Shown here: positions 74 through 18,181 of the stretch, in pieces
Numbering within the stretch: position 1 is the stretch's first letter
Layout of the letters: every line of letters begins with the position of its first letter
Origin: Cyclobacterium xiamenense
Lineage (GTDB): Bacteria; Bacteroidota; Bacteroidia; Cytophagales; Cyclobacteriaceae
Length of the DNA: 34,148 nt
Assembly: GCF_009467825.1 (NCBI RefSeq)
Contig: NZ_WIOK01000044.1
Coordinates: 1 to 34,148, forward strand
Direction of reading: 5' to 3'
Notes under the pieces: model-generated
What the model saw: the letters and a program-made list of their open reading frames with translations, nothing else
Databases searched by the model: none
What the model was told of the DNA's origin: nothing
Made by a program: the position numbers and the translations under genes

Positions 74-145
74 TTAGACAGAGTTGAGATTACAGTCTCC
101 ACCGGCCAGTTCTCCCCATATTTTTACCTCGGCTACATCTACCAT
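74..145 (-). pseudogene. HipA toxin kinase, N-terminal remnant only
   Basis: An ATG at 145 overlaps the stop codon of the HipB-like gene by 7 bases, the usual coupling in hipBA pairs. It reads MVDVAEVKIWGELAG, which resembles the first strand of HipA-family Ser/Thr kinases (a V-x-I/V-W-G-x-L-V/A-G pattern). Similarity stops there and a TAA follows at 76-74 after nine more residues. The rest of the roughly 400-residue toxin, including all kinase motifs, is absent. I infer that the toxin was deleted and the antitoxin left as an orphan. Recognition rests on a very short stretch, so the call is moderate. Confidence 0.5.
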
Positions 146-489
146 CCTAGATCTTCTTTCTTTTCATTCTTTGTCTCCTTAGTTCTTACACGCTCTTTCT
201 CCTTTTTCTTCAACTTGGCATACTCAAGCGGACTTATCTCATCGTTGACTTCAAACTCTTTTAGTACATACAATGAATCAAGTGCTCTTAGTATCTGAAT
301 CAGGCTTGAAAGCGTAATGGATTCTCCTGTTTCTATCTGGCTAAGGGTATACCGATTTAAGCCTGCCATTTCCGCTAGGTTCGCCTGCGTAATGTTTTTT
401 TGCGACCTGGTATGCTTAATGAACTGCCCTATTTCGGACACTATAGCTGAATCTGATATTTCCGCTGATATTCTGTTGGTTTTTGCCAT
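139..489 (-). CDS. HipB-like XRE-family repressor/antitoxin (orphan)
   Basis: A 116-residue DNA-binding protein. Residues ~20-75 form an XRE/Cro helix-turn-helix: IGQFIKHTRSQKNITQANLAEMAG, followed by the recognition helix LNRYTLSQIETG. The tail after residue ~85 is a highly charged Lys/Glu helix. I chose ATG at 489 over the in-frame GTG at 492. HipB proteins bind operators over their own promoter and neutralise HipA; here four copies of a GTTGG-N6-CCAAC inverted repeat cover the promoter and start codon, fitting tight autoregulation. The HipA gene that should follow is only a stub overlapping this stop codon, so the protein probably survives as an orphan regulator. It might instead control the surrounding defence genes, but no further copies of the operator were noticed near them. 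Confidence 0.85.
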   Translation of the reverse strand: MAKTNRISAEISDSAIVSEIGQFIKHTRSQKNITQANLAEMAGLNRYTLSQIETGESITLSSLIQILRALDSLYVLKEFEVNDEISPLEYAKLKKKEKERVRTKETKNEKKEDLGW

Positions 490-618
490 CACTAAATATT
501 TTTTAACCTATTAAGGTTGGTTTTTGCCAACACAAATATAAGAAATAAATCTGAATAGTATGTTCGTTTTTGCCAACGCTAAATAAAATAAACATGCTTA
601 ACGTTGGTTTTTGCCAAC
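475..618. promoter_or_regulatory. Four operator-like inverted repeats in front of the hipB-like gene
   Basis: Sites with the pattern GTTGG-TTTTTG-CCAAC lie at 475-490 (last arm CCATC), 516-531, 562-577 (first arm GTTCG) and 603-618. Centre spacing is 41, 46 and 41 bp, close to four helical turns, so all four face roughly the same side of the DNA. The first overlaps the start codon, so the ATG and first codons of the repressor are part of an operator. The second lies just downstream of the -7 element. This resembles the four-operator layout of the E. coli hipBA promoter, although the sequence differs. Confidence 0.75.
533..540 (-). promoter_or_regulatory. Bacteroidota-type -7 element for the hipB-like gene
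   Basis: On the minus strand the sequence TATATTTG matches the TAnnTTTG -7 consensus of Bacteroidota sigma-A exactly, 43 bp before the ATG. It sits between two of the operators, so a bound repressor would cover it. No good -33 TTTG element is seen at the usual spacing. Confidence 0.55.
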
Positions 619-649: not shown

Positions 650-1465
650 CTATATTTTAGCCACCGCTCCTTCGAATTTAGCATAATTGGCATCTACACC
701 ATCATCCAAGTCAAACTCAATTTGTTGGTTGGCTAGTTCCTTTAATACCTCATTATAGTCTCGGCATTCCAACTCATGATTACGCAATTCTTCAAGGCGT
801 TTGAGTTCTTGGCGGCTCAGATTTTCTTCGTTGTCCGAAAGCTTTTCTATTTCTCGCTTGATGTACTCTTGGTGTGGATGCAGGTAGCTGCGTTGTATTT
901 TCTGCACGGTGTATTTATCCATGCGGTGCATGTACACCAATACCTTGAAGGCTGCATTATTGGGTTTTTTCACATTGCTGCTAAACAACCAATAAATGGG
1001 TTTCTTTTTGTACATGCTGGTATGATAGCCCCAAAATTTCTCAGTAAGCCACTTGTGCAGATCCATACCCAAGGCATCATGGATAAAATTGATGTTTTCC
1101 GTTAGGCTACCTTCTCCCCAAACGGCATGCACCAAATCTTTGGTACGTACCAAGCCATCATCGGGGAAGGCACAATCTTCGCCCATTAAGGGTACTATGC
1201 CGTCTTCATCTATTTCTATGTTATGCCCGTTATATTTGTACCTAGCTGTTTCTTCTTCTGTTGGATTAGGATGAGCAATGTTTAAGCCCGGTTTATCCAA
1301 GCGATAACGTCCTAAAAACACCCCAATACCATAAGATAGAAACTGACTGATTATCTCAGCTTTGTTAATAGGTAAACTAACAGCTTCTTTGCCTTGCTCT
1401 CGAAATACAGGCTCTAAGGCTTCTAAGTCATTTTTGTTTAACTCTTCAATATCACCTTTAATATC
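650..1465 (-). pseudogene. pglX: PglX (BREX adenine methyltransferase), C-terminal fragment
   Basis: The frame is open from just after a TGA at 1468-1466 down to the stop at 650, about 271 codons with no convincing start. It matches the C-terminal third of PglX, the ~1200-residue adenine methyltransferase of BREX phage-exclusion systems. Landmarks in order are the GVFLGRYRLDKPGL segment, the DEDGIVPL acidic turn, the KKPIYWLFSS block, FKVLVYMHRMD, SYLHPHQ, and the coiled-coil end finishing with IEFDLDDGVDANYAKF. The catalytic N-terminal part (DPPY motif) is missing, and none of the usual partners (BrxC, PglZ, BrxL) is visible. I infer a deleted BREX locus whose end is retained. The GTG at 1321 gives a 223-residue open frame but is not a credible start for this family. 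Confidence 0.8.
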
Positions 1466-1537
1466 TCAGGACTCCTTATCTCAAACGAAATCATGTGGTT
1501 CAAAATCTTAATTTTAACTAATCACAAGAAAAATTAG

Positions 1538-1764
1538 TCATATCGGAGGTATTTGAAAAAGGCCATTATCTTCCCGATTAAAACTTTCTACCTCTGTTAT
1601 TCCCTCTTCAAATTCCGTAAGATCAATCAAATCTGCCTGACCCTGAAGAACAAGTATGGCATCCGATTTAACAGTTTTAAGTTCTTCAATTTTATGCTAT
1701 ACCTCTGGGGTGTAGATAGTTTTTGAGTTTATTTTTTTGAAATAAGTTCCTTTTTGAGCCAAGG
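1538..1764 (-). pseudogene. Decayed coding stretch, C-terminal end of an unidentified protein
   Basis: Reading the minus strand from about 1764 gives LAQKGTYFKKINSKTIYTPEV, an in-frame TAG, then HKIEELKTVKSDAILVLQGQ and about 30 further protein-like residues ending ...LFQIPPI at a TGA (1540-1538). Composition and codon use look like real protein, interrupted by one internal stop and another just upstream. It lies directly upstream of the PglX fragment on the same strand, where a BREX locus would carry the end of another BREX gene, but I cannot match it to one. Between 1765 and 1969 only further broken frames are seen. Confidence 0.4.
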
Positions 1765-1969
1765 CCTATAGTTCCCAGCTTTAGTTTAGTCCGTCTAATC
1801 ATTTACCTCCCTGACTACTCCCACCACACTAATACGTCATTTGGCACTACCTTCATCACAAGCGGCCCGTACCTCACGCTTGGCGGTAGGCAAGGTCAAT
1901 AAAAAGGCAGACGGATAGTAGAGCAACAAAAGCCACCTTAGATAAAAAGATTAAGACAGTTATTACTAA

Positions 1970-4945
1970 TTATTTAATGGATATTATATCATTTATACTG
2001 GCCACCACCTCATATTTCAGATCTTGCTCCAAGGACTCAAAATGCTTCTTCCCACATTTGATTTTGAAGTATTCCATGGGTCTTAGCTTCAGTTTATACT
2101 TGGAACCCTTACTTTCCAAAACGAAGTACAGCTTGGTATCTCCACCCTGTTCCCAAAGCAAAGCCCAGTCGGGATTGTAATCGCCAAGTGGTGTCTGTAC
2201 CTTGAATTTTGGAGGAAGCTTAGCATAAACTTTCACATTATTGCTGTTTTCAAAGGATCTGGCAAGATCGGATTCCACGGTAGAATCATATCGGACATAA
2301 TCAAATGGAGACTTGGTACTTTCCAATAGGTTACTTTCCATGTATCCTTTGATGGGTGTGTCTTCCGCCTCGAACAATTCCTGGACGTAGTACTCTTGGT
2401 TATCCAGTTTTCGGTATTGGATACCATCCACCAAAAACTCCAGTTTCACTTCATTGATGATCTGAAGCACCTCCTCCATGAAGAGCTGGGGATTGATTCT
2501 CAGCGATTCAAGGTCAACTTGCAGCAAAATATCGATAAGCGTATTACGCGTCAACTGTGTTTCATTTTGCAAGAAACTCAACACGTCTGGAAGGTAGGTT
2601 GCTTTTTCTTCTACAGCGATAACATCAATGTACGTTTCTTTACTTTCCAAGCCTGAAAGCTTTTGTGCTACTGCGGCTTTTTTGTAAATGATTTTTGAAC
2701 CTTCTCTCTTGATCTGTGCTTTGACCCGTTCTACGATTTTTGCTTTCAAGGCTTCGGAATCAAACTTCACATCATAGGTAGTCTTGTACTTGATCTTATT
2801 CCAAAGCTCCAAGAAGTCTTGATTGAGATACACCTGCTTATTCAGCTTGAGCGTACGTTCCTTGGACTTGTCTTTGATGTTGGTCTTTTTCGGAATGATG
2901 GCTTTTACTTTTTCGACAATAACCGCTTCAAAAGGCTGTAAGTCTAATGGCAAACCCAAGGGCTTATTATTTTTAACTCTTAAAATCAATTCATCGGTAA
3001 CTTTTCCAATGGTAACTTTCTTTTTGACACCTGAAATCTTCGCCTTTGATTCAGTGATCAAATTGAGATCCTTCAGCGCTTTGAAAACTGCTTCAGACTT
3101 TTTCTCGCCCAACATCACAGGCTTTCCGTTTTCATCGGCATCAACGATTGCATTGGAGAAATAATCCGCCTGGAAAGAACCAAATGGCACCCCGGTTTCC
3201 AGCTCGATATCCTTCTGAAGGTTTTCCACAAACTCTTCATAAGTTTCATTAGCTATTACAGTCAAGGTATTGATCGAACGGTCATATACCCGATTACCCG
3301 TCTCATCCACACAAATACGCAAGCCTCGACCGATAGACTGCTTGCGCTTAATTTCAGATTGGGATTCGTTAAGCGTGCAGATTTGGAAGACATTCGGGTT
3401 GTCCCAACCCACGCCCAAAGCAGAGTGGGAAAAGATAAACCGGAGCGGATTGTCATAATTCAACAGCTTCTCCTTTTCTTCCATGATTAGCTTGTAGGTA
3501 GAATCATCTTTACCAGTCTGGCCTGTCGTATCTACCATACGGCCTTTATCCTGAGAAAAATATCCGTCCCTTACTTTTTCTAAAGGAGTCTCTTTATGCG
3601 AAGGCAATTCAAACAAGATTTGGTACTTCGAAAACTGTCTCAATCTTTGATAGGCTTCATCAAACCATCGGGCATACTTTCCGTCAATCTTGTTTCCATC
3701 CTCATCGTAGCTTCTGAAATTGGCTACTCGGTCTATGAAAAAAAGGCTCAATACCTTGATCTTCTTCTCCCGACCTGCAAAAAACAATTCTTTATCCAGG
3801 TGCTCTTCAATGGTTTTGTAAATCTGAACCTGTTGGTAAGCTTCTACACTCAAGCCTCCCAAGGTCTCCCCAAGAAATAATCGATTGGCTACCGTTGTGA
3901 AACTTAGCTGCCACCGTTTGTTGACCACGGAAATCTCCCCAATGGTATAATCCCGATAAATTTCTCTTCCGGTCAGGTCTTCCAAAGAATCTCCTACGTC
4001 ACACTTGACCACTTTTCGTTCCACTTCCCCATTAGACTTTTGCACATCCAGTTCCAGCCGGATATCCTGTTTCTTAGGATCATAGTCATAGAATCGGATA
4101 AAAGCTTCATTGGAATCATTGGCAGCCTGCATGCCCGCCACTTCTATTTGCTTGACAAAGCCCTGCTCGTAGGCATCGTAAGCCGAAAAGCGATAAATCA
4201 AATTTACCTTATTGATGTGCGTGGCAGAATAGCGCAAAACTACCAGGGGATTCAGGTCTTTGATACTGCTTTGCGCCTTATCACTCTCCATTTCCTGAGG
4301 CTCATCCAGAATTACGATGGGATTGACATTCTGAATGACTTTCAGGGGAATGCCACCCGTTTCGTAGTGCGGTTTATTGATCACTTTATCTTGGCTATTA
4401 AAAGCATCGATATTGATGATCATGATTTCGATGGAGGCATTGACTGCAAAGCTTCGGATCTGAGAAACTTCCCTGCTGCTGTATACAAAATCCCGAAAGA
4501 CCACATTGTCATAAAGCCCCCCAAAATGCTCCCGAGTCTGACGGATGGTGGCTTTCACCCCTTCACGGATAGCTACGGAAGGCACTACGATGATAAACTT
4601 GGTAAAGCCATGGACTTTATTCAACTCGAAAATGGTCCGCAGGTACACATAGGTTTTGCCGGTACCGGTCTCCATCTCTATGGAATACTGCAAGTCACTT
4701 TTGCGTAAGCTATCACTGAGCCCAACGGCATTTCTTGCCTGAACTTCCTGCAGGTTTTCAAGCAGGCGGGTTTCAGAAATGACCAGATCATTACCGTACC
4801 CTTTTTCTATTTTTCCAAACAAGTCCTCATTAACCTTGGCTACCGAAAAAACAGAATCGTAGCGGTTACCTCCCTGAAAAAGATCTACTACCGACTGAAT
4901 GGCCTCCAGCTGATAAGCGAGGCTCTGATTAAAATGGATCTGCAT
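1970..4945 (-). CDS. res: Type III restriction endonuclease subunit Res
   Basis: A 991-residue superfamily 2 helicase/nuclease that partners Mod to translocate along and cleave unmethylated DNA. Visible motifs: Walker A ETGTGKT (residues 92-98), the Res-type motif II DEPQ (214-217), motif III YSAT (~239-242), the ALGVGWDNP segment and motif VI QSIGRGLR (about 515-550). Near the C-terminus is an intact PD-(D/E)xK nuclease core: YNPDW around 925, then FVLESKG around 945. Length fits the family. The ATG at 4945 is 3 bases after the mod stop, so translation is probably coupled. All motifs needed for activity appear intact. It ends the five-gene unit that starts at 14148. Confidence 0.95.
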   Translation of the reverse strand: MQIHFNQSLAYQLEAIQSVVDLFQGGNRYDSVFSVAKVNEDLFGKIEKGYGNDLVISETRLLENLQEVQARNAVGLSDSLRKSDLQYSIEMETGTGKTYVYLRTIFELNKVHGFTKFIIVVPSVAIREGVKATIRQTREHFGGLYDNVVFRDFVYSSREVSQIRSFAVNASIEIMIINIDAFNSQDKVINKPHYETGGIPLKVIQNVNPIVILDEPQEMESDKAQSSIKDLNPLVVLRYSATHINKVNLIYRFSAYDAYEQGFVKQIEVAGMQAANDSNEAFIRFYDYDPKKQDIRLELDVQKSNGEVERKVVKCDVGDSLEDLTGREIYRDYTIGEISVVNKRWQLSFTTVANRLFLGETLGGLSVEAYQQVQIYKTIEEHLDKELFFAGREKKIKVLSLFFIDRVANFRSYDEDGNKIDGKYARWFDEAYQRLRQFSKYQILFELPSHKETPLEKVRDGYFSQDKGRMVDTTGQTGKDDSTYKLIMEEKEKLLNYDNPLRFIFSHSALGVGWDNPNVFQICTLNESQSEIKRKQSIGRGLRICVDETGNRVYDRSINTLTVIANETYEEFVENLQKDIELETGVPFGSFQADYFSNAIVDADENGKPVMLGEKKSEAVFKALKDLNLITESKAKISGVKKKVTIGKVTDELILRVKNNKPLGLPLDLQPFEAVIVEKVKAIIPKKTNIKDKSKERTLKLNKQVYLNQDFLELWNKIKYKTTYDVKFDSEALKAKIVERVKAQIKREGSKIIYKKAAVAQKLSGLESKETYIDVIAVEEKATYLPDVLSFLQNETQLTRNTLIDILLQVDLESLRINPQLFMEEVLQIINEVKLEFLVDGIQYRKLDNQEYYVQELFEAEDTPIKGYMESNLLESTKSPFDYVRYDSTVESDLARSFENSNNVKVYAKLPPKFKVQTPLGDYNPDWALLWEQGGDTKLYFVLESKGSKYKLKLRPMEYFKIKCGKKHFESLEQDLKYEVVASINDIISIK

Positions 4946-4948
4946 GGT

Positions 4949-6982
4949 TTAGAGGGTATTTACTTTGGCAAATCCAAATTCATTCTTCAATCTCAACTCT
5001 GCATTGGTTTTGAAAGCATCGTCTTTGCCAAAAGCCTCATCCTTAAGCACCAAAACAGGTTTCAAGTCCACTATTGCTTCTGCTATACTTTCCTTACCCC
5101 AATTACCTATTCCCTCTATTACTTCCATGGTAATCGGTGCATTCATGCAGATAAACAATTCCCCATGGCTGATGCTGTAAACCCTGGCTCCGGCAATGCT
5201 GCGCTCTTCTATCTGAGAAGTCAGTAACAACCCCTGCTTCAGCAGCAATTCATAGAGCAAGTCTTCTTCCGTTCTGCCCTTCTTCAGGTGGTTTCTGCTT
5301 TCTTCCAGTCTGGTCTGGATTCCCTGGACCGTCTCAGGCATTTCGGTATCCCAAGCTTCAATGTTAGAGCTATCCAGCTTGAATACTTTGAAGCCTATAT
5401 CCAGTTTGGCAATAATCTCTTCCAACTCCTGAATTTTAGCTTTTTCTTCATCGGTTTGGATTAGACTGGCTTTAGCTTTTAATTGATCTAGTTCTTCTTT
5501 TTTCTCCGCAAAAATAGTATCACCAGCTCTTCGTATTCTTTCTTTTCCAATTTCTGTTATTGTTTTATACCCCGACTTAAACGCTTCGCTTTTTTCGTCA
5601 GTTATTTCAGGTAATTGTACTTGAATATGTTTTCTATTTAATTCATCTTCTGAATTTAATTGCATAACAGAGTGAGCAGTTGTCCCAGAACCAGAGAAAA
5701 AGTCAAGTATTATTTCATTATTTTTAAAATTTACATACTTAATTAGTAATTTAATTAAGTCAACAGGTTTAGTATACTGAAAAACTCTTTCATCGAAGAG
5801 TTTTTTCATATCAGAGGAAGAACTCGCATTAAGAATTGAAGTTATAAGATTCTTGTGAGGAGCCGACCTGACTATTTGATTATTTTCATTATCAACGTTC
5901 AAATAATTTTTATAGTAAACTGACCATCCACTATTTTTATTATCTGATTTTTTAAACTCTATGAAATTATTTTCTCTTGCCCATTGAACTTTAGATTTAC
6001 TCCATTTCCATATCCAACCATCGTTCTGAAATTCTTTTCTTCCATTTGGAAATGATAAAGTACCATCTGGGCATTCAATTCCAAAATTTAATGAATCACT
6101 ATATTGAAGTCCACCTCTGTCTAGATTATCTGTATAATAAGGTCCTCTAAGTTCGAAATGTTCATCTTTATTGCGATACCTAGTTAGATCGAAAGACTCA
6201 AAATTTCTAGAAAAAGTATTTTCTATAAAATTAATGTCTTTACAATACACGATGATACTTTCAGTTATTGTTGAAATCGTGGATGAATCTGAAGCTCCCG
6301 TTTTTTTTTGCCATATTAAATTTGAAATGAAATTTGTTTCACCAAATATTTCGTCACAAAGTTTTTTCAAATTATCAACTTCATTATCATCGATACTAAT
6401 TAAAATTACCCCGTCATCTTTCAATAAGTTTCTCGATAACCTCAATCTGGGATACATCATATTCAACCAGTTGGAATGATACCGTCCATCTTCTTTGGTA
6501 TTGGTGGATTGCTTAACTCCTTCGCTGTCTACTTGATCGGTTTGTTCGAGATAGTTTTTCAGGTTGTCTTTGTAGTTGTCTTTATAGACAAAGTCTTTGC
6601 CCGTATTGTAAGGAGGATCGATGTAGATCATTTTGATCTTCCCATTGTAACTTTTTTGGAGGAGCTTGAGTACTTCCAGGTTGTCTCCTTCGATGTATAT
6701 ATTTTCAGTTTTTTCCCAGTTCTTGCTACTTTCCTTGTCGGGGCGTAGGGTCCCGAGTGATCGTTTCATGGATTCTTTGATGGCCTCGTTTTTCCCCCAC
6801 CAGTTAAGTCCGTACAATTCATCATTAGGTGTGATAAGATCACCAAGTAGTAGTTGTAGTTTTTCAAAATCCACACGGCCTTCACTGAATACCTCAGGAA
6901 AAATTTCTTTGAGTTTCTGAATATTTTCGGCCAGTATATCTTGGCTTCCGCTCAGGGAATGGTCTTTGGTGATTTTTTCCAT
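4949..6982 (-). CDS. mod: Type III DNA adenine methyltransferase Mod
   Basis: A 677-residue beta-class N6-adenine methyltransferase that supplies both protection and DNA specificity to the type III complex. Catalytic motif IV DPPYNTG is at residues 122-128 and the AdoMet-binding motif I ILDFFSGSGTT near 425-434, in the order expected for Mod. The variable target-recognition region lies between them (about 200-420). DNA encoding that region (~5560-6480) is clearly more AT-rich than the two flanks, as if exchanged by recombination. It also contains a run of nine A residues on the coding strand (6301-6309, near codon 225) that could slip. The start is 4 bases after the DUF4391 stop, and res follows 3 bases after this stop. 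Confidence 0.95.
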   Translation of the reverse strand: MEKITKDHSLSGSQDILAENIQKLKEIFPEVFSEGRVDFEKLQLLLGDLITPNDELYGLNWWGKNEAIKESMKRSLGTLRPDKESSKNWEKTENIYIEGDNLEVLKLLQKSYNGKIKMIYIDPPYNTGKDFVYKDNYKDNLKNYLEQTDQVDSEGVKQSTNTKEDGRYHSNWLNMMYPRLRLSRNLLKDDGVILISIDDNEVDNLKKLCDEIFGETNFISNLIWQKKTGASDSSTISTITESIIVYCKDINFIENTFSRNFESFDLTRYRNKDEHFELRGPYYTDNLDRGGLQYSDSLNFGIECPDGTLSFPNGRKEFQNDGWIWKWSKSKVQWARENNFIEFKKSDNKNSGWSVYYKNYLNVDNENNQIVRSAPHKNLITSILNASSSSDMKKLFDERVFQYTKPVDLIKLLIKYVNFKNNEIILDFFSGSGTTAHSVMQLNSEDELNRKHIQVQLPEITDEKSEAFKSGYKTITEIGKERIRRAGDTIFAEKKEELDQLKAKASLIQTDEEKAKIQELEEIIAKLDIGFKVFKLDSSNIEAWDTEMPETVQGIQTRLEESRNHLKKGRTEEDLLYELLLKQGLLLTSQIEERSIAGARVYSISHGELFICMNAPITMEVIEGIGNWGKESIAEAIVDLKPVLVLKDEAFGKDDAFKTNAELRLKNEFGFAKVNTL

Positions 6983-6986
6983 ATTG

Positions 6987-7682
6987 TTAGTTGTCTTTTA
7001 ATCGTGATTTTAAGGCTTTGATTTGTTCGGCTAGAGCACGGGCCTGATGATGCAGCTCTGCCTTTTTGGCTGCATTTCTTTCCCTAGCGTATTCGTTTTT
7101 TATCGTTATGGCTTTTTTCTCCAGCGCCAGGAGTGCAAGCTGATCTTGTCTGTTTTCATCATGGATATGATGCATCAGCTTATCAAAGTACTCCTTGAGG
7201 TGGGTACCGCCTACTTTGTCCAAAAATAGATTAGTTAGATAGGTCTTTTGTTGCTCGCTGAGCTTTTCAGCATCCATCCACTCCGAAAAGTAGAACTTAT
7301 CCTGATTCAATTTCCGCTTGTCCTTTTGCTGCTGATGGATCGTTTTCTCCGCTAGCTGAAAGCAGAATTCCTCTTTATAAATAAACCCAAGTACCAAGGG
7401 ATAAGGAATCGCTTTTTGCAACAGTCTAGCTACCCGATCGGCAGCTGCTTTCTCTCTAAGCTCCACCTCGACGCTAACTACCTCATCATAGCAGAACTCC
7501 TCATTGATGAAAGCAGGAATTTGAAGATGCTGAGGCTTAAGGGATCCTGTCCAAATCATCTTCTCTATTTTGTCCAAAAGATCTTGATTTACATCTGGCT
7601 GAACTTCCTTGAGGACTTTTTTGGTCATCTTGATAGAAAACACGGAGGCGGCAGGCCACTTCAAATGATCTATTAATCTCAT
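6987..7682 (-). CDS. DUF4391 family protein
   Basis: A 231-residue cytoplasmic protein recognised as DUF4391 from its overall pattern: a short N-terminal LKWPAASVFSIKMTKK segment, a hydrophobic core with alternating short strands (LQIPAFINEEFCYDEVVSVEVEL), the IPYPLVLGFIYKEEFCFQLA strand pair, then YFSEWMDAEKLS. Residues from ~170 to the end form a Lys/Glu/Ala-rich coiled coil. The biochemical function is unknown, and I see no catalytic motif. Its ATG overlaps the SNF2 stop by 4 bases, and mod starts 4 bases after its own stop. To my knowledge DUF4391 genes often sit between a SNF2-type helicase and a methyltransferase in defence loci. An adaptor role between helicase and Mod/Res is inference. 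Confidence 0.8.
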   Translation of the reverse strand: MRLIDHLKWPAASVFSIKMTKKVLKEVQPDVNQDLLDKIEKMIWTGSLKPQHLQIPAFINEEFCYDEVVSVEVELREKAAADRVARLLQKAIPYPLVLGFIYKEEFCFQLAEKTIHQQQKDKRKLNQDKFYFSEWMDAEKLSEQQKTYLTNLFLDKVGGTHLKEYFDKLMHHIHDENRQDQLALLALEKKAITIKNEYARERNAAKKAELHHQARALAEQIKALKSRLKDN

Positions 7683-10600
7683 CTTCTGAGGATAAAGAAA
7701 CTGACCAATTCATAATTCTCAGGCGTGGCGGACAATCCGGCCGCAGGAACGGTTCCTCCCAGTTGATAGAGCGTGCGTTCCCCCTCCTCTGTACTCTTTC
7801 CGATCACACCTTCTATGGCTTTTTGGAAAAGCTCCCGATAGGTACGCATATCTGAATACTGCTTGGTTTCCTTTGCCAATTGCTTTGCAAGACTATCATC
7901 TACCTTGGAATTGTTCACACAAAGCTTTTTACAGATATCCAGGATTTTCTTTCTTCGGTTGTAATTCATTACCACCTTGCCTTGCTTATTCAAATACGTG
8001 AGGAAAAAGGTGTTTTTATCCCGCTGTTTGATGCAGAATACCACTCCTTCCTCGATGGATTCTTCGGAAGCAGGGATTTGAAGAATGGTATGGATACCCT
8101 CAGGCGTTTTGATAGCTGCATCCTGATTTTCCTTCAAAAAGCGATGAAGGTCAGATTTGAAGTCATTGTAGGTAAAATCAGAAATAGACAAACCACCTCC
8201 CAAGTCATCGATCTCGACGCCCTTATTATCCTTCAGTTCCTGAAGCTGTTTGACCCGGTAATTGTCGGTTTCTTCTCGCGCATCCTTTTCATGCTCCATT
8301 TCAGAGATGACATTATCACCTCCTGTACCTGACACATCTACCATCACAGCACGCCCTTCTACTCTGCCACGAAGCTTGATATAGGTATCCAGATCATCCA
8401 TAGGCCAGAAATTAACCATTTGGATGCGTTGATTAATCGAGCCCATTCGGTCTATTCGACCAAATCGCTGAACAATGCGTACCGGATTCCAATGAATGTC
8501 ATAATTGACCAAGTAATCGCAATCCTGTAAGTTCTGGCCTTCTGATACGCAATCCGTAGCCATGAGAATATCGATTTGTTCTTGGCAATTGGGATACGTG
8601 GTTTCTCTACGCTTGGAGACAGGAGAGAAGTTAGTCAATAAATAGTTGAAATCAGTTTTGTAGTACGTACCTCTTTCATTTTTTACCCGGGGTAGATTGG
8701 TTTTATCAGCAGTGGTTCCGCCAGTCACTAAGGCTGTGTAGAGTCCAAATTTAGTTTGAGCCCAATCTGCTATTTGGTCATACAGATAGGAAGCCGTATC
8801 CGCAAAAGCCGTAAAAATCAAGACTTTTTTATTTCCTTGATTGATTGGCTGGTTGATTTTTTGAGTGATTTTTTGCTTTAGAAGATTCAGTTTAGGATCA
8901 GTTGCAGGGCCTTCTGCCTGGACTTTTCTAAGGATGGATTCAAGGATGGCCTTATCATTTTCCAGGTCATTTTTCCATTTGATTAAATCCATATCTTGGA
9001 TTTCAATTCGAACTTTTTTACCGACACTCAGTTCTTCCCTTAAATCTTCCAGTTCAGCGGGGATTTCATTGAAATCCTCGAGATAACCTTGGGTGCGTTC
9101 AATTCTATGTAGGATATCGTCAATTTTATCTAAAATTGATTTGATGGTCAGGCCAAATGAACTGGATGCACTTTCCAAGCGCTTGAGAAGATTAACCTTC
9201 ATTAAGTAAATCAAGCTTTCCTCCCTGTCCGACTGTTTGAAAATAACCCCTCTCGACACTTCACTATCGTATCGCTGAGCGTATTTTTCCGGAATACCAT
9301 TATCATCACGGAGATAGGTAATGGGTGCATACAGACCTAGATTCAGCTGATTCATTTCTTCTACTAAGGCTTCGATATCGCTAAGAGCACCGCCATTGTT
9401 ACCAGCTACAGGAGTGTTGTCTGGCTGTAATCGTTCAGGGAAATGAATAGTTTCTCCATAAAAACTCCGGATATGCCTTCTACATCGGGCAATACTCACT
9501 TTGTCCAACAGGTCAAAGTATTTAGGATGTTTGGTGCTGAGTGTTTCAAGTAACTTATCAGGGTTTCTATCTCCTTCAATCCATTTGTTGAATTCCCGCT
9601 GAACCCCCGTCATCAATTTGGCAATAGAAGGAATTCCCTCTGAATGAAAAGCATCGTCTCTATTCTCAGTCATCACATAAATCTGATGTTTGAGGTCATT
9701 CATTTTATTGTTGACAGGAGTAGCAGAAAGCAATAAGACCTTGGTCTTGAGTCCTTTGGAGACAACTTCTTCCATCAGCTTTTTGTAACGTGTATTGTCA
9801 TTTCGGAAGTTATGGCTTTCATCAATGACTACTAAGTCATAATTGCCCCAGTTTACCCTCCCCAAAATAAGTCCATCCACTTCTCTATCTGGGTTTTGAT
9901 TAGATAGATCTGTATGACTTAATAAGTCGTACCTCAAATTATCATTTTGGAAGAAGTTTTCAGATTCATTTACCTTGAAAATTCTCCAGTTTTCTCTAAG
10001 CTTTTTAGGACAAAGCACCAAAACCCGGGCGTTACCATCTCGGCACAAAAAATACTTAATTACAGCCAATGCTTCATAGGTTTTGCCCAAACCTACACTA
10101 TCTGCCAAAATACAGCCGTTGTATTTTTTTATTTTGTGGATGGCACCAAGGACACCATCTTGCTGAAAGGGTTTGAGTTCATTCCAGATTTTGGAATCAG
10201 TAAGCCCGATTTGGCTGATTTCATTTTGATCCGCACTTACTTCATCTACCCCTTCAAAGATCCGACTCAGGGTAAACTGATACAAAAACTCAGGGCTGTA
10301 GTCCTTGTAAGCACGCTCCAGTTCTTTTAATAGGTCGGCTTTTATATCTTTTGCTGCTTGACTCCACTGAATATCAAAGAGCATCTGATACTGATCTATA
10401 ATAGGCTGTTCTTCTTTTTTGGATTTTACCTCAGTGATTGTTTTTTGATTCGTTGCCACTAATCCAAGGTTCTCACTGGTAAATCCATTGGAAATAAAGG
10501 AAGCACTAAATTTGGTTGTCCCTGTACCAAGTAGCATATTCAAACTGGGAACGCTTTGTTTGATTTGTGTCTTCGCACTGAAGAAATCAGCACAAGTTTC

Positions 10601-10858
10601 AGCTGCAAAACGGAGAAGAAACTGGTTTTTGAATTCCATCTCATCAGCCGTCCCAAAAATCTGACGCACCTTTTCTTCCTGTTGATTCGTCCAGAGAATT
10701 CTTAAAGAATTGATGTCTTCGAACTTGTCACTCAAAAACATAAAAGCATAAATACTAAACTGATCCACGATTAGACTCAAGTCTGAACCCGGTTGGATCA
10801 ATTCTTTTAATTCTGTAGCCAGTTTATTCCCAGCTTCGTTGGTAATAATTTTTGCCAT
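7679..10858 (-). CDS. SNF2-family helicase with PLD-like N-terminal domain (DrmD/HepA-like)
   Basis: A 1059-residue double-stranded-DNA translocase. Residues ~25-140 resemble the phospholipase-D-like domain often found in front of these helicases (SLIVDQFSIYAF strand; FISNGFTSENLGL, like the usual GSSNFT..GL), but the H-x-K catalytic pair expected before it is not visible. Helicase motifs are intact: Walker A DSVGLGKT (253-260), DESH (346-349), SATP (378-381), the IFTAFADTA strand, and motifs V-VI around 760-800 including SEGQNLQ and QRFGRIDRMGS. The ATG shares one base with the stop of the upstream helicase (TAATG), and its stop overlaps the DUF4391 start by 4 bases. A DISARM DrmD-like role is inferred from architecture and neighbours. 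Confidence 0.85.
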   Translation of the reverse strand: MAKIITNEAGNKLATELKELIQPGSDLSLIVDQFSIYAFMFLSDKFEDINSLRILWTNQQEEKVRQIFGTADEMEFKNQFLLRFAAETCADFFSAKTQIKQSVPSLNMLLGTGTTKFSASFISNGFTSENLGLVATNQKTITEVKSKKEEQPIIDQYQMLFDIQWSQAAKDIKADLLKELERAYKDYSPEFLYQFTLSRIFEGVDEVSADQNEISQIGLTDSKIWNELKPFQQDGVLGAIHKIKKYNGCILADSVGLGKTYEALAVIKYFLCRDGNARVLVLCPKKLRENWRIFKVNESENFFQNDNLRYDLLSHTDLSNQNPDREVDGLILGRVNWGNYDLVVIDESHNFRNDNTRYKKLMEEVVSKGLKTKVLLLSATPVNNKMNDLKHQIYVMTENRDDAFHSEGIPSIAKLMTGVQREFNKWIEGDRNPDKLLETLSTKHPKYFDLLDKVSIARCRRHIRSFYGETIHFPERLQPDNTPVAGNNGGALSDIEALVEEMNQLNLGLYAPITYLRDDNGIPEKYAQRYDSEVSRGVIFKQSDREESLIYLMKVNLLKRLESASSSFGLTIKSILDKIDDILHRIERTQGYLEDFNEIPAELEDLREELSVGKKVRIEIQDMDLIKWKNDLENDKAILESILRKVQAEGPATDPKLNLLKQKITQKINQPINQGNKKVLIFTAFADTASYLYDQIADWAQTKFGLYTALVTGGTTADKTNLPRVKNERGTYYKTDFNYLLTNFSPVSKRRETTYPNCQEQIDILMATDCVSEGQNLQDCDYLVNYDIHWNPVRIVQRFGRIDRMGSINQRIQMVNFWPMDDLDTYIKLRGRVEGRAVMVDVSGTGGDNVISEMEHEKDAREETDNYRVKQLQELKDNKGVEIDDLGGGLSISDFTYNDFKSDLHRFLKENQDAAIKTPEGIHTILQIPASEESIEEGVVFCIKQRDKNTFFLTYLNKQGKVVMNYNRRKKILDICKKLCVNNSKVDDSLAKQLAKETKQYSDMRTYRELFQKAIEGVIGKSTEEGERTLYQLGGTVPAAGLSATPENYELVSFFILRR

Positions 10859-13800
10859 TATAAAATTCGACTTCTTACTAAGTCATATTGAGTTAAGGTA
10901 TGATTTTCTGTGACCTGAAGAGATGACTGAGGTATTCCTTCTAAAGTTTCATCAGAGTTTTCAATCTTTAAATCATATAAAATGGTGGATACGCCGTTTA
11001 CAATTTGTGGATACACCCAGTCGATGATGTAATCTTGATCATCATTGATGATTTTGATTTTTTGATTCAGTGAAAGTATAGGGACTACCTGCTGATTCAT
11101 GGCATTACGTTCATTCTGATTATTTCTCTGAATTTCTGTTTCAGGGGCTAAAACTTCAGTCCTTAAATTGATGAAAAAGTCGATGATTTCCTGATCAATA
11201 AATACTTGTTCTCCATCCTTGGTGTAAACATATTCGGCGGTGTCTAACCAATCTAGGGCAGAGTTTATGCTTGCCAAAAGTACCTCTTGGAACATCAGCC
11301 TAGAGGTCAGCCTCAAGCTACCATAGGTTTTATCATAAATGCAGAGGTATCTTTCTCCCGTATCGAAGATATCACCATTATTTAGAGCGGTAAATGATCC
11401 TATACAAAAATTCAAATCTTGAGGTTCAAAAGGAATATTTGTCAAAAACACATTGAAAAAAATATTAGCAATTGCCTCAACTTTTTCAGCTGAACTTATT
11501 TGTGATAGAGGGCCTCTGCCAATCAAAACTCCCGTAGTGACTATCCTGCGTGAATACGTTCTTCTAGAAAAATAATTATTTGGATAGGAGACCGAGATTT
11601 CATCAGCTCCTCCTCTTCTTTCATAATATCCAAAAATATTTTCATAGACATCAAGATTACATTCTATTACAGAGGTATTTGTGAATCGCTTTCCTTGTAT
11701 CAAACCATCCCCAAGATTTGGATATGGCATGATTTGCAATATAGGTCTAGTTGAGTAATGCGCTTCATTTCTCAAGCAAATTTTATATTGCTCAATCGAG
11801 GTGACTCGATAGGGTCTTTTCATGTGGTAATACACTGCACCTGGATAAGCCTCCCTCATTTGCTGGCTCTTGGTCATTTCCCCTAAACCTAAAATGTCTC
11901 TTCCTTCGAGTAATTCAATCTTAAACTGTTTCTCAATATCCCTTAATGGGAATGTTTGCTGCGGGATTTCATTATTATTTGGGTTGAGATTTTTTAAGTG
12001 CTGAGGCTCAATTGAGTTTTTTACTTTTTCACATAGATTTAGGAATCCATCTGGAAATTTGACTTCACTGTCCTCCAACTGATCAATATTAATTGCCTGG
12101 GCTTCAGGGGCGCCATTTAACCCAACCAAACAGAGAGCATGGATATATTGGATGAATTCATTATCCAGATAAAGTGCAGTATCGGCAGGAGGGATGTTAA
12201 AGATATTTTGAGGATTTTGAAAAACTCTTTCTGACCTAATGCTTTTGTCATTAATAATTAAAACAAATCCAGCTTGATGTCTGCCAATCCTACCAATTCT
12301 TTGCATGAAGCTGGTTTGAGAAGATGGTACACCAAATAAAATTCCAACATTTAAATGTCCAATATCAATTCCCATTTCTAATGCACTGGTGGAAATAACT
12401 CCTCTTAATGTTCCATCCGATAACTTATCCTGAATTTTTTTTCGATCTTCAGATTCATAGCCGGATCTATAAGGGGAAATCCGATTGTCTAAACGATCTG
12501 TGATTGTAGCAATTTGTTCAACTGCTTTTCTATTATCAACAAACGTTATACTTCTATTATTTTGGTCCTCTGAGATTCGATTAATAAAATCAGCAATTCG
12601 GCTAAAAGGCTCTGAATCATCTAGAGGATCAAGAAGGAAAACCTCAATAGGATGTTTTGGAGAAGTTTCATGGTCATGGTCAATAATAGTAAATTCCAAA
12701 CCTGTCAATTGATGAAGAAATTGTTCGGGGTTACTAATGGTTGCGGAAGCGCATAGGACCTGTATAGGATTTGATGTTTGTAGTTTCAACTTTTGACATG
12801 CCAAATGAATCCTTCGGTAAAGAAAAGCTGCATTTGAACCGAAAACACCGCGATAAACATGGACTTCATCGATTACTAATAAGTCTAAATTTCTGAAAAA
12901 GCTCCGAATAAAATTTTTGTCAAGGTTGACTAAAAACCAAGAATGAATGACATCTGGCGTTACTACAACAACATTTGAATCTTCTATTATTTTTCGTCGT
13001 TCATTTGTAGATACCGTGCCATCAATTCTTCCTACTTTTAATGCCTTGCCTGAAAGGGAAAAGGCTTGCTTCCATTTTTCCTCCTGTTGGTAACCCAGAG
13101 CTTTTAAAGGATAAATCGCTAAAATTTTGGCTGATGGATTTTTTTCTATTATTTCAAGCGCTTGAGCATAAAAAACCAAACTTTTACCAGAGCTGGTAGA
13201 AGTAGCCAAGCAGACATTGTTTGGTTGTCCATCATTTTCTCTCAATAACTCCAGCGCTCGATATTGGTGCAGAAAAATCTGACCTCCAACGGCTTGGTTT
13301 AGATAGTTTCTTGTACCGCCTGATAGATTTAAATTATCTGTTGAAAGGGTTCCAGCAGGTCTTTCAGGCAATATATCTCTATGAACAATTCTATATCCGG
13401 AATCTTGCACAATGTCCTCGATTGAGCGCTCCATCGCAAGATACTCTGGAGTTACCACCTCCTCGTTTACTTGATTTTCTAATTCCTGATCCTCAGTTAT
13501 TTCCTCTTCTTCAGGGTAATTCGGGGTTTGAAATTCTTCAGGAACGGGAACTTCACTATCAAACCCCAGATTAAACAATTGTTGAAAACCTCTTATTTCA
13601 TGGTTGGACAAACTAATCCCAGTACTGGTAATTTGATTTACTTTTTGGATGGAATGTGCTAGATCGGTGATATGGAACCAGCTGGCAATTCTATCAGTGA
13701 TAGAATACAGATCAAATTCAATATTCTTAGAGAATAAAACTATCCCCGAAATATGTCCAAGATTGGTGTCCTGAAAATTTCCAAAAAGGTTTAGTGTGTT

Positions 13801-14148
13801 TAGTAGGGCAAATTTATTTCTCCTTACCTGCTGATAGGGATTTTCATTGGCCCCTCCCCTGACTGATAACGTGTTTGCGTTTCCATCTTGAATGACAGTT
13901 ATGGGCCAGTCTCCATTTTCATGGAATGTGAGGGCTCCTCCGTAATTTTTAAATTCTATGACAGAAATCGCATCCTTCTTTATGAGTAAAGCATCAAGCT
14001 CTCTTCCTTCAACATGAAGATTGCCAATGCACAAATAAAGGTCTGGGGACTGGTGGAAATTACTGTAAAGCTTATTACAAAATTCATCGAATAACTGCCT
14101 TTCATGAGTGTGATCAAAGTTTCGGGAAAGGAGGATTTTTACGGGCAT
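10858..14148 (-). CDS. NERD-domain Lhr/DrmA-like DEAD/DEAH helicase
   Basis: A 1096-residue protein, first gene of the five-gene unit. Residues ~10-110 form a NERD nuclease-related domain with its key residues in place (GRELDALLI with D52, then IEFKNYGG with E65 and K67). An acidic linker (~205-235) leads to a superfamily 2 helicase: Walker A ATSTSSGKS (315-323), DEVH (427-430), SAT (468-470), SALEMGIDIG (~588-597) and QRIGRIGR (616-623). These fit the Lhr/YprA/Hrq1-like group that includes DISARM DrmA. The C-terminal ~400 residues are family-specific and I could not resolve them. No upstream gene lies on this strand, so the operon promoter should lie in 14149-14400; no clear TAnnTTTG box was found there. 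Confidence 0.88.
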   Translation of the reverse strand: MPVKILLSRNFDHTHERQLFDEFCNKLYSNFHQSPDLYLCIGNLHVEGRELDALLIKKDAISVIEFKNYGGALTFHENGDWPITVIQDGNANTLSVRGGANENPYQQVRRNKFALLNTLNLFGNFQDTNLGHISGIVLFSKNIEFDLYSITDRIASWFHITDLAHSIQKVNQITSTGISLSNHEIRGFQQLFNLGFDSEVPVPEEFQTPNYPEEEEITEDQELENQVNEEVVTPEYLAMERSIEDIVQDSGYRIVHRDILPERPAGTLSTDNLNLSGGTRNYLNQAVGGQIFLHQYRALELLRENDGQPNNVCLATSTSSGKSLVFYAQALEIIEKNPSAKILAIYPLKALGYQQEEKWKQAFSLSGKALKVGRIDGTVSTNERRKIIEDSNVVVVTPDVIHSWFLVNLDKNFIRSFFRNLDLLVIDEVHVYRGVFGSNAAFLYRRIHLACQKLKLQTSNPIQVLCASATISNPEQFLHQLTGLEFTIIDHDHETSPKHPIEVFLLDPLDDSEPFSRIADFINRISEDQNNRSITFVDNRKAVEQIATITDRLDNRISPYRSGYESEDRKKIQDKLSDGTLRGVISTSALEMGIDIGHLNVGILFGVPSSQTSFMQRIGRIGRHQAGFVLIINDKSIRSERVFQNPQNIFNIPPADTALYLDNEFIQYIHALCLVGLNGAPEAQAINIDQLEDSEVKFPDGFLNLCEKVKNSIEPQHLKNLNPNNNEIPQQTFPLRDIEKQFKIELLEGRDILGLGEMTKSQQMREAYPGAVYYHMKRPYRVTSIEQYKICLRNEAHYSTRPILQIMPYPNLGDGLIQGKRFTNTSVIECNLDVYENIFGYYERRGGADEISVSYPNNYFSRRTYSRRIVTTGVLIGRGPLSQISSAEKVEAIANIFFNVFLTNIPFEPQDLNFCIGSFTALNNGDIFDTGERYLCIYDKTYGSLRLTSRLMFQEVLLASINSALDWLDTAEYVYTKDGEQVFIDQEIIDFFINLRTEVLAPETEIQRNNQNERNAMNQQVVPILSLNQKIKIINDDQDYIIDWVYPQIVNGVSTILYDLKIENSDETLEGIPQSSLQVTENHTLTQYDLVRSRIL

Positions 14149-15344
14149 ATTTTTTTAAAACATTAGTTGGATCTTTCAATTAAAAGACATCTTCGGACTT
14201 TTGCAACTCTTAATATTCTAATTCCTGAAGAATTAAGCAACTAAAAGTAGCTGACACCCGGTCTATTTGAAATGTTTAATTGACATCGTTTTACTTCCAT
14301 GCTGGTTTTCTAATTGATAATCAATTGGATAGGAGACTACGAATGGATTCTTGATTTTTGAATGCTTCATTGGATAGGTAACAAAAAGTAAATGAATAGA
14401 AGTAAGGAGCGCTTTGATTGTAGGTTTTTTCTATGGAACCACACTTTTTGACCAGGTATGCCGCTACTTCCAGCCGGTACCGCTCCACGTATTGAGGCCA
14501 TCCATTCCTTCCGATTGCCGGGTTTTTCCAGTTGGTCGGGCAGCAGGCTCGGGGTCGAGGTGTTGGTAGCTGACTTGCCGATCCCGATCGGCCACTATTC
14601 CGAAAGTAAAATTACCTGCCCCTGATTGATTTCCTGTTTTCATTGGTTATCCGTTCTATTTTTTATCATTCTACCCACCACTGCTGACTCGTTTTTTTGA
14701 TTTGCTAATCCTGAACAGATAAAGATAATAAACTAAACGGTAGTTCCCCCGTTTTTGCAAGCTTGCAAATTCCAGGGCACCAACCGGAAGGAAGGAGTTG
14801 CTGGTAAATGTCGCCCGCCTGGGCCAAGCCCGTGGGGATTTCGCCAATTGGCCCATTCCCGTGCAGGGGGGGTGGCAGCTGAATGAGGCTACCGGTTCCC
14901 GCGGCAGGTAACCGAAGGGCATACCCGAGATGCCTCCGGTCCAAATCAAGACCCGGCGATCCCATCCAAATCCCAAAAAACCTGATTCCAAGGCCAAACG
15001 CTGCTGCTACTGCGATGACTACCGGGGAGGAGCAGGTCGACTAGTGAGGAAAAAGATGCGCCAAAGGGACCGGATTTACCCGGGATTTACCCGACTTAGA
15101 CCCCATGAAATTGCGCCTGCCTGCTAAACGAAGAGGCAGGAAGCAAGCGGCACATCGTGTATCGATTAGAAGCCCTGCAAGATTCAGCCTGCCAGTGATA
15201 AGAACCGCAGCGGGCAGGAAAAATCTTTGGGAATTTGGCAAATGTTGTTCCCAAAATAAAAACCCATACGGTTTCACGGCGAAATCCCTCCGGGCGCCGG
15301 GGTACGTAGCAGAGCTACTTCCCTGAACTTCGAAATGGGATATA
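14149..15344. other. Gene-poor junction between defence island and accessory region
   Basis: No convincing intact gene. On the minus strand two short protein-like frames lie in 14321-14645: one begins at an ATG near 14642 (MKTGNQSGAGNFTFGIVADR), and another ends at a TGA (14323-14321) with natural-looking sequence (WPQYVERYRLEVAAYLVKKC). Together they look like one small gene broken by a frameshift, with no family recognised. From ~14640 the G+C rises sharply. The stretch 14750-15344 holds one GCAAGCTTGC palindrome, short inverted repeats and only out-of-phase frames without domain signals. Confidence 0.45.
14754..14769. repeat. GCAAGCTTGC palindrome, copy 1
   Basis: The perfect palindrome extends to 16 bp, TTTGCAAGCTTGCAAA. 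On the minus strand side it is followed by AAA then CGGGGG, the CG-rich flank seen beside most copies. Confidence 0.8.
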
Positions 15345-15680
15345 CCTGAGCTCCCTTCGGTCGAACCAGGTCTCCCGGACGGAGCGGCGCCTCACCTTGA
15401 AATTAACCAAGCGAGGATCGGGTATTTGCAAGCTTGCAGGTTTTACCGGGGAAGGCAAAATATCCCCAACATTGCAAAAAGATTCGCACTACCATGAATG
15501 CAATGCCTCTTGAATTCGCTGCGGTTGATGACCCTTGGTCTGACGCTCCTTTCTGCCATGCAGGTGGTGCCGATCACGGCGACCGATCATGCAGCATCCA
15601 AAAATAAGTTTAATTAACTACGTGGAGACCAGCACCCACACAAAAAAACGGGGCGTATTCCGAAAAGCCACACGAGTAGG
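15345..15680 (+). repeat. 336-bp leader repeat, copy A
   Basis: Matches 17828-18163 without any indel (constant offset 2483) and with about 14 mismatches by eye, roughly 96% identity. Most mismatches lie in the last 60 bases. It ends 21 bases before the ATG of the TRL-like lipoprotein gene. It contains a GCAAGCTTGC palindrome, the GATC-rich stretch GCCGATCACGGCGACCGATC, and a conserved ACTACGTGGAGACCAGCACC block near the downstream end. No terminal inverted repeats or target duplications are evident, so it does not look like a MITE. Its place before a start codon in both copies suggests a promoter/leader function. Confidence 0.9.
15427..15438. repeat. GCAAGCTTGC palindrome, copy 2
   Basis: A 12-bp palindrome TGCAAGCTTGCA inside the first copy of the 336-bp leader repeat. 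The plus-strand side continues GGTTTTACCGGGG, the clearest example of the AT-rich spacer plus CGGGG flank. Confidence 0.8.
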
Positions 15681-15701
15681 AATAATTCAAATTTAACACT
15701 T

Positions 15702-15983
15702 ATGAGAAAAGTAAAAACAATTTTCGCATCACTTGCGATTGTTGCGATGATGTCAAGCTGTTCATTGACATTACCCGTTACCGCTACAAGCAACCCGATT
15801 GGAGAGAAAGTCGGAACGGCTAAAGCAACAGGTTATTTAGGAGCGCTATTTTTTGATGCAGATGCAAGTATTCGAACCGCAGCTAAAAATGGAGGGATTT
15901 CCGAAATTTCAACTGTCGATATTAAGAAAGGAAATCTGCTTAATTTAATTGTTACCTACGAGACAATTGTAACAGGTAAATAA
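15702..15983 (+). CDS. TRL-like family lipoprotein
   Basis: A 93-residue exported protein. Residues 1-20 are a lipoprotein signal peptide (MRKVKTIFASLAIVAMMSSC) with the lipid-attachment Cys at 20. The mature part matches the short TRL-like family: PVTATSNPIGEKVGTAKATG, then a LGALFFDADASIRTAAKNGG segment and a C-terminal ISTVDIKKGNLLNLIVTYET pattern. The function of the family is unknown; members are small envelope lipoproteins. It stands alone between leader repeat A and a strong terminator just after its stop, so it is probably transcribed as a single gene from the repeat. Confidence 0.85.
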   Translation: MRKVKTIFASLAIVAMMSSCSLTLPVTATSNPIGEKVGTAKATGYLGALFFDADASIRTAAKNGGISEISTVDIKKGNLLNLIVTYETIVTGK

Positions 15984-15992
15984 TTAAACCTT

Positions 15993-16024
15993 AAGTCAAG
16001 GGGATAAGCCCCTTGACTTTTTTT
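15993..16024 (+). terminator. Intrinsic terminator after the TRL-like gene
   Basis: Perfect 11-bp stem AAGTCAAGGGG / CCCCTTGACTT (15993-16003 and 16009-16019), 5-base loop, followed by a T run to 16024. It lies 10 bases after the stop codon. Confidence 0.9.
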
Positions 16025-16035
16025 AACCGCAACTT

Positions 16036-16521: not shown

Positions 16522-16524
16522 TCT

Positions 16525-17801: not shown

Positions 17802-17827
17802 CCGGCTTTAGCCACCAGGAAATCGCG

Positions 17828-18163: not shown

Positions 18164-18181
18164 CAAAAAATAACGTTAACC

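Follow-up and report, generated by a model that had tools for sequence, protein, structure and literature searches.

Amongst described systems, the closest to the locus examined here are the type III restriction-modification systems of the EcoP1I/EcoP15I kind and the ARMADA and DISARM systems, in which an SNF2-family helicase, a YprA-family helicase and an adenine methylase are brought together. The main-text sections covered of a preprint survey of YprA helicases (PMC12458937) describe nucleases that are fused C-terminally or encoded by separate genes, and N-terminal wHTH or EVE domains in Dpd and DISARM. NERD appears in those sections only as a part of TALON, where an ARMADA-like YprA that ends in an inactive RNase H domain is accompanied by NERD endonuclease, TPR-CSD and TBP genes, and no N-terminal NERD fusion is described. 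Elsewhere, NERD is reported as an N-terminal add-on of DndF and PglW and is read as a co-effector or backup nuclease (PMC10853773 and PMC12839542, in the parts covered). The DNA analyzed in this study, referred to as the window, is one entire contig of the Cyclobacterium xiamenense assembly (NZ_WIOK01000044.1, 34,148 nucleotides), and sequence beyond base 1 is outside its view. It carries an operon in which NERD-YprA, a NERD nuclease domain fused to a YprA/MrfA-like helicase, precedes the genes of an SNF2 helicase, a DUF4391 protein and the type III subunits Mod and Res. The evidence gathered here makes it somewhat probable that this operon is a four-gene type III subtype (SNF2, DUF4391, Mod and Res) with one rare add-on effector, NERD-YprA.

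All five open reading frames (ORFs) lie on the minus strand and are translated in the order NERD-YprA (1096 amino acids, aa; 10858-14148), SNF2 (1059 aa, 7679-10858), DUF4391 (231 aa, 6987-7682), Mod (677 aa, 4949-6982) and Res (991 aa, 1970-4945). The stop of NERD-YprA overlaps the start of SNF2 by 1 base in the junction TAATG, SNF2 and DUF4391 share a 4-base overlap (ATGA), and gaps of 4 and 3 bases separate DUF4391 from Mod and Mod from Res. These coordinates and junctions confirmed the original prediction of five genes on one strand with short overlaps or gaps, and the key catalytic motifs were intact. The same prediction placed the genes in one transcriptional unit. The tight gene spacing suggests a single transcript; the promoter-like sites (29 in the window, sigma-70 type only, versus 35.1 in shuffles) and terminator-like sites (14 versus 14.0) were not above expectation. 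The Pfam E-values were 8.5e-9 for NERD and 2.5e-24 for DEAD, accompanied by Helicase_C, in NERD-YprA; 6.8e-16 for SNF2; 1.4e-28 for DUF4391; 2.3e-30 for N6_N4_Mtase in Mod; and 4e-34 for RE_endonuc, accompanied by ResIII, in Res. Apart from DUF4391, which was matched in Pfam only, the parts were also borne out by PADLOC and NCBIfam.

The last four genes were found to recur as a unit. Related loci were located via DUF4391 and SNF2 in plasmids, via SNF2 in viral_contigs (the best 80 of 89 SNF2 relatives, corresponding to 78 distinct loci), and via the DUF4391 family in 395 genomes of the same class and 395 of the same phylum, from which 5 class and 20 phylum regions were fetched, fragmentary and sub-threshold matches being left out. 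Genes were typed with profiles made from the window and plasmid proteins. Across these sources, 78 loci extended at least 7 kb after SNF2, and all four core genes were present in 67 of them (viral_contigs 43/52, plasmids 12/12, same class 3/4 with 2 in order, same phylum 9/10). SNF2, DUF4391, Mod and Res followed one another in order on one strand in 66 of the 78, and in 55 each gene was near full length as well; the only complete locus with another order was L052 (Res-Mod-SNF2-DUF4391). Because order and strand were the same in 66 of the 78 loci, the last four genes are more than a chance grouping, and the earlier proposal that a complete type III Mod/Res pair is linked via DUF4391 to SNF2 holds for a widely conserved unit.

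Of the 99 loci that reach 0.8 kb or more beyond SNF2, 93 contained DUF4391 (viral_contigs 59/65, plasmids 12/12, class 5/5, phylum 17/17), and its start fell between -60 and +20 nt from the SNF2 end in 88 of 99 loci with both genes. DUF4391 itself had served to retrieve the genome loci and 6 of the 12 plasmid loci, and the presence of this gene is therefore not an independent observation there; the viral_contigs loci were found through SNF2. Conversely, SNF2 was present in 23 of the 25 genome loci fetched via DUF4391. In the two loci lacking it (L178 and L179) the DUF4391 gene was broken by a stop, and L179 was cut soon after DUF4391.

Core loci came from plasmids of bacteria and one archaeon, from phage-like contigs and from same-phylum genomes. 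Their hosts include E. coli, Vibrio, Enterococcus, Lactococcus and, for a plasmid, the archaeon Methanomethylovorans, and SNF2 identity to the window was approximately 38 to 43% in the core loci of bacteria and the archaeal plasmid. Of 5426 E. coli genomes, 10 held near copies of the core set of one E. coli plasmid; in 9 of these the match covered 80% or more of the query, and 10 of the 11 places were on plasmids. RefSeq labels these E. coli genes one by one as 'helicase-related protein', 'DUF4391 domain-containing protein', 'site-specific DNA-methyltransferase' and 'type III restriction-modification system endonuclease'. No close DNA relatives of the window itself were found by megablast in E. 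coli genomes or plasmids. Amongst the matches listed in the open-access literature, none described SNF2-DUF4391-Mod-Res as a system, and an earlier description elsewhere, for example in subscription journals, is possible.

Mod, an N6-adenine methyltransferase, and Res, an SF2 motor with a C-terminal endonuclease, corresponded to PADLOC MTase_III (658 bits) and REase_III (912 bits). In alignments of 47 rows, consisting of the window and 46 loci with all four core genes of suitable length and near-copies removed, the Walker lysine, DExx and PD-(D/E)xK residues of Res and the DPPY motif of Mod were kept, including in the window; K97, D214, D926, E944 and K946 of Res were invariant in 47/47 rows. 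The Res endonuclease domain, with PDW...ExK, spans residues 878-982 (2000-2314, minus strand; Pfam PF19778, 4e-34). In Mod, DPPYNTG at residues 122-128 precedes FFSGSG at 428-433, thus motif IV stands before motif I, the order of the beta class. As far as sequence can tell, the pair is a member of type III restriction-modification, sharing with EcoP1I/EcoP15I the Mod and Res families, the motif order and the catalytic residues; unlike those systems, the window has conserved SNF2 and DUF4391 genes upstream, plus NERD-YprA.

The SNF2 protein has RapA as its best PDB relative and C3a139 'HKD+Snf2' as its top PADLOC match (341 bits), with DrmD amongst the better ones (128 bits). Nearly all of its helicase motif positions were kept across the 47 rows and in the window, and no conserved HKD motif was seen in the N-terminal region in an alignment of 12 sequences. 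DUF4391 had no PADLOC or NCBIfam family at E-values up to 0.001. An AlphaFold2 model from 54 sequences, with a mean predicted local distance difference test (pLDDT) of 93.2, consists of a small alpha/beta domain followed by a long helical hairpin (residues 162-230), and the VIA-align rows for this protein cover mostly hairpin residues 176-231 only. Fold matches to CorA and coiled-coil proteins were set aside as a common arrangement. The hairpin, combined with the usual place of the gene between SNF2 and Mod, suggests that DUF4391 may serve as an adaptor. The literature matches listed for DUF4391 included one paper, which in the part covered treats it only as an enriched domain. Additionally, PMC7251935 only lists families in the part covered, and MhgA, a methylase-SNF2 fusion, was dismissed as a different protein on the portion of its description that was covered.

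The fifth gene, NERD-YprA, encodes an N-terminal NERD nuclease domain (residues 33-139; 13732-14052, minus strand) and an SF2 DExH helicase, identified by Pfam, NCBIfam and PDB matches. Residues D52, E65, K67 and Q107 of the NERD domain were identical in three full-length orthologues, and these positions presumably include the PD-(D/E)xK residues. The N-terminal region matched the PADLOC model PDC-M16A (178.9 bits, best stretch residues 5-190), although the NERD stretch spans only the N-terminal fifth of this 917-position model. The helicase core (residues 289-674; 12127-13284, minus strand) was delimited by its phmmer match to B. subtilis YprA (6znp, 173.7 bits, 5.4e-50), the best among 40 PDB sequences listed, and the motifs TSTSSGKS, DEVH, SAT and QRIGRIGR were recognized by eye in the translation. 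TIGR03817 scored 228 bits, below its cut-off of 874. The PADLOC models for the helicase part gave 115 bits for BrxHI/BrxHII and 100 for SngC, and at best 60, 55 and 52 for DpdJ, DruE and DrmA, respectively. On these matches, the motor is closest to YprA/MrfA and not to DrmA. The helicase core resembles that of B. subtilis YprA/MrfA, but the window protein differs from it by the N-terminal NERD fusion and the undetected DUF1998: residues 640-1096 had no Pfam match at E-values up to 10, DUF1998 and the Vsr nuclease included. The YprA family is characterized by an OB-CON-DUF1998 module, and Dpd, too, is described as having lost the four-cysteine cluster (PMC12458937, preprint, in the sections covered). 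The structure model of the whole protein had a pLDDT of 34.2. No description of the NERD-YprA fusion was present in the open-access literature among the matches listed.

NERD-YprA did not follow the distribution of the core. None of the 95 loci that extend 3.3 kb or more upstream of SNF2 contained it (viral_contigs 67, plasmids 12, class 4, phylum 12), such that the plasmid operons with the same core content and order lack it in 12 of 12 cases. The only match to its profile amongst the SNF2 loci was weak (58 bits), without NERD, in L052. The proposed five-gene set was thus seen once amongst the loci examined, and a pairing of the two helicases is not supported: the neighbourhood check proposed in the original prediction gave a divided answer, with SNF2 staying with Mod/Res and NERD-YprA occurring apart. 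In L052, a side observation was a 2712-aa fusion of a cold-shock domain, a DpdF-like helicase and a GajB-like UvrD helicase (10373-18511) straight after SNF2-DUF4391.

The rarity of NERD-YprA rests mainly on the phylum and class genome searches, in which, apart from the own genome, a single one of 394 phylum genomes and none of 394 class genomes held a full-length gene; two candidates were scored per genome and some may have been missed. Within the family of the positive phylum genome it was present in 1 of 9 genomes, the positive one itself. A genome_contigs scan that used just two short peptide patterns returned one orthologue, and scans of viral_contigs gave none or one weak helicase-core match. 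In plasmids, tblastn matched 754 records, none over 80% of the length; the best plasmid match, in Thermomicrobium roseum (33.8%), was rejected as a helicase without NERD and without core genes nearby. At the order level, the NERD part alone was matched in 16 of 291 genomes including the own, the other 15 being weak (best E-value 3.7e-9).

Besides that of the window, two full-length orthologues were identified, in Prevotella sp. tf2-5 (L056) and in genome G764 (L047). The Prevotella gene comes after those of a PADLOC 'Orf5' protein that by eye resembles DUF262, two DNA methylases, an AAA_5 protein whose likeness to McrB was also judged by eye (PADLOC REase_II, 122 bits) and a 779-aa protein that matched no family; it overlaps a 780-aa gene that had no match either. 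This Prevotella cluster is possibly an undescribed defence operon; its extent, 890-18422, also holds 2H-ligase-like and TPR-like proteins, both recognized by eye. In G764, a DruE-like helicase fragment follows NERD-YprA and the contig ends 0.7 kb past the gene. Three other genomes (L048-L050) have the same NERD type joined to SF1 (AAA_11/AAA_12) helicases. From this small sample of two orthologues, both the NERD part and the NERD-YprA gene look like exchangeable pieces.

Other genes also occupy the flanks of the core. A small ORF stood directly before SNF2 in 8 of 12 plasmid loci, with a helix-turn-helix (HTH) domain in 5 of the 8, and this slot is occupied by NERD-YprA in the window. Before NERD-YprA itself no HTH gene was seen, the only ORF scanned there being 14671-14997, which had no match. 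In same-phylum loci, extra genes lay within or beside the core, among them those of a YhcG nuclease (L177), a Schlafen-AlbA_2 protein (L186), an AAA_15 ATPase (L195) and an HsdR-like helicase with a YgjP-like peptidase (L190); 2 of 10 extra-gene proteins scanned in these loci had no match. As separate observations, three loci (L053, L085 and L133) carried two near-full-length Mod genes each, and on an Acinetobacter plasmid (L014) the core lay beside TnsA-, Mu-type transposase-, TniB- and TniQ-like genes, where it may be cargo of a Tn7-like element.

The window core is a lone divergent branch, with nearest-neighbour distances ranking 2, 3, 3 and 3 of 47 for SNF2, DUF4391, Mod and Res, respectively. 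In the SNF2 tree the end branch of the window was the second longest of 102, and for this reason its placement is unsure. A faster change of SNF2 and DUF4391 than of Mod and Res, which would tie the former to the fifth gene, was considered and dropped, as mean-distance ranks (2, 16, 8 and 2 of 47, in the same order) gave no such split.

The composition of the operon and the sequence next to it are consistent with an arrival from elsewhere. By gene, GC content was 0.36 to 0.43, compared with 0.48 on the right-hand side of the window. Third-position GC was lowest in NERD-YprA (0.31), followed by Mod (0.35), SNF2 (0.41), DUF4391 (0.48) and Res (0.50), and was 0.54 to 0.60 in three chromosomal neighbours; the low value of NERD-YprA fits a later addition, though that of Mod is nearly as low. 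Downstream of Res, an ORF of 223 aa (650-1321, minus strand) encodes the C-terminal piece of a BREX-1 PglX whose front part is missing (PADLOC, NCBIfam), and six other PglX matches in the whole genome were all below the family cut-off. The piece is possibly a relic left when the operon arrived, and foreign origin with insertion replacing part of a BREX locus is plausible.

Further features of the window lie apart from these subjects. Between the PglX piece and Res, 1322-1969 looks by eye like degraded coding sequence. The HTH gene at 139-492 (minus strand) is matched best by Y4mF/HipB-type antitoxin models, below cut-offs, and three to four direct repeats around GTTGGTTTTTGCCAAC, 41-46 bases apart, form an operator-like array over its start (468-629). 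Two copies of the DUF805 RNA motif of Rfam were located on the plus strand, one at 15617-15686 (72.0 bits) just before a TRL-like ORF at 15702 and one at 18100-18169 (64.2 bits) that immediately precedes a CsgG/LpoB-like ORF at 18155 and slightly overlaps its start. No tRNA was found in the window.

Membership of the locus in DISARM, ARMADA, TALON or BREX was not supported. The original prediction likened the two helicases to those of DISARM. NCBIfam DrmD models scored 152.5 and 118.1 on SNF2 (cut-offs 610 and 950), DrmA models scored 25.0 and 22.6 on NERD-YprA (cut-offs 999 and 950), and Pfam found no DrmB (DUF1998) or DrmC (PLD) amongst 27 window ORFs of a contig that ends at base 1. The proposed likeness is not supported apart from a distant SNF2-DrmD kinship, which stands at the level of sequence. 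ARMADA places a PglX-like methylase beside YprA and BrxHII-like helicases, and its YprA carries a C-terminal Vsr nuclease. In ARMADA and DISARM a PglX-like methylase occupies the place held here by type III Mod/Res, and the window has no DUF1998 match; the only PglX-like methylase next to its helicases is the C-terminal piece downstream of Res. This piece is also the only BREX component seen in the window, to which the search for PglZ and BrxC was confined. TALON, like the window, pairs a NERD nuclease with a YprA-family helicase, but no cold-shock, TBP or RNase H match was obtained amongst the 27 window ORFs scanned, a view limited by the contig end; a weak TPR-type match, below cut-off, lies at 20556-21500 in the chromosomal part. 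Compared with DndF and PglW, the NERD partner in the window is a YprA-family helicase.

A four-gene type III subtype with NERD-YprA as add-on accommodates the observed gene content, operon spacing, intact motifs, four-gene conservation, absence of NERD-YprA from the other copies examined and its occurrence next to other defence-type genes. We infer a role in phage defence and a cooperation of the fifth protein with the other four, which could proceed as follows. Mod would bind an asymmetric site and methylate self DNA. Unmodified invading DNA would license the Mod-Res complex, in which Res would spend ATP and its PD-(D/E)xK domain would cut. The coiled-coil hairpin of DUF4391 might hold SNF2 to Mod/Res, and SNF2 may travel on double-stranded DNA, clearing bound proteins or helping two complexes meet. 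NERD-YprA would then load on single-stranded or cut DNA and, driven by its YprA motor, degrade it with the NERD domain, and the cut phage DNA would not be repaired. A more far-reaching version, in which SNF2 and DUF4391 are obligate parts of a separate type III subtype, spread over bacteria and archaea, not yet named and with slots for exchangeable effectors, and the Mod mark governs a DISARM-like processive nuclease (NERD-YprA), is tentative and rather doubtful as a whole.

Several points weigh against the four-gene subtype with an add-on. A core part was missing in 11 of the 78 loci: L086, L089, L098 and L113 had SNF2 alone, and together with L091 they group in one separate SNF2 clade; L078 had SNF2 and Res; L096, L099, L125 and L187 lacked Res; and L119 and L051 lacked Mod. 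The loci are not independent, as the 54 with four suitable-length genes fell to 46 after removal of near-copies, and the presence counts take in broken copies of Res (L013 and L015) and of Mod (L021 and L023). Of the plasmid loci, six represent all DUF4391 matches and the other six were hand-picked from the top SNF2 matches (239 records). With just two other full-length NERD-YprA genes, the partners of this gene are poorly sampled, and its TAATG overlap with SNF2 speaks for the two being used together. The DUF4391 model had no Foldseek match in the PDB at E-values up to 0.001, and thus no confident fold match.

The overlap with SNF2 and the tight spacing over all five genes would be expected of one dedicated five-part system, in which Mod marks self both for Res and for a two-helicase/NERD arm, and the lone divergent branch of the core would allow a distinct subtype with its own fifth part. 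The five-gene order was nevertheless absent from the 95 other loci, NERD-YprA keeps other company, and SNF2 and NERD-YprA do not travel as a pair, leaving this explanation unlikely. At the other extreme, classical type III systems need Mod and Res only (PMC4490356, in the part covered), and the YhcG nuclease, HsdR-like helicase, Schlafen-AlbA_2 protein and AAA ATPases of related loci are varied extras that could make SNF2, DUF4391 and NERD-YprA mere defence-island neighbours of an ordinary two-gene system. SNF2 and DUF4391, however, keep their order with Mod/Res across bacteria and an archaeal plasmid, at SNF2 identities to the window of approximately 38 to 43%, which chance neighbours would not do, and we regard such a two-gene system as quite improbable. 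The least probable explanation, to which we give very little weight, is a DISARM/ARMADA-like system with the two helicases as true core, a type III Mod replacing the PglX-like methylase and Res as an extra. In its favour, an SNF2-family helicase, a YprA-family helicase and an adenine methylase are the combination typical of ARMADA and DISARM (PMC12458937, in the sections covered), a PglX C-terminal piece lies just downstream, and L052 has another large helicase fusion directly after DUF4391. Set against this are the DrmD and DrmA scores far below cut-offs, the lack of a DUF1998 or PLD match in the 27 window ORFs, B. subtilis YprA as the best solved relative, and the company of SNF2 with Mod/Res without NERD-YprA.

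The individual families and type III Mod/Res restriction itself were known, and SNF2-DUF4391-Mod-Res had been annotated only gene by gene in E. coli records. What is new is that the four-gene set recurs widely, yet seemingly without a name of its own, and that the five-gene form was seen once. Should the four genes form one machine, two subunits have been overlooked in part of what is classed as type III restriction, and DUF4391 would acquire a setting and a role open to testing. The fifth gene would demonstrate that a helicase-nuclease like those of DISARM-related systems can share a restriction mark, and that effectors of this type pass as cassettes from one modification system to another.

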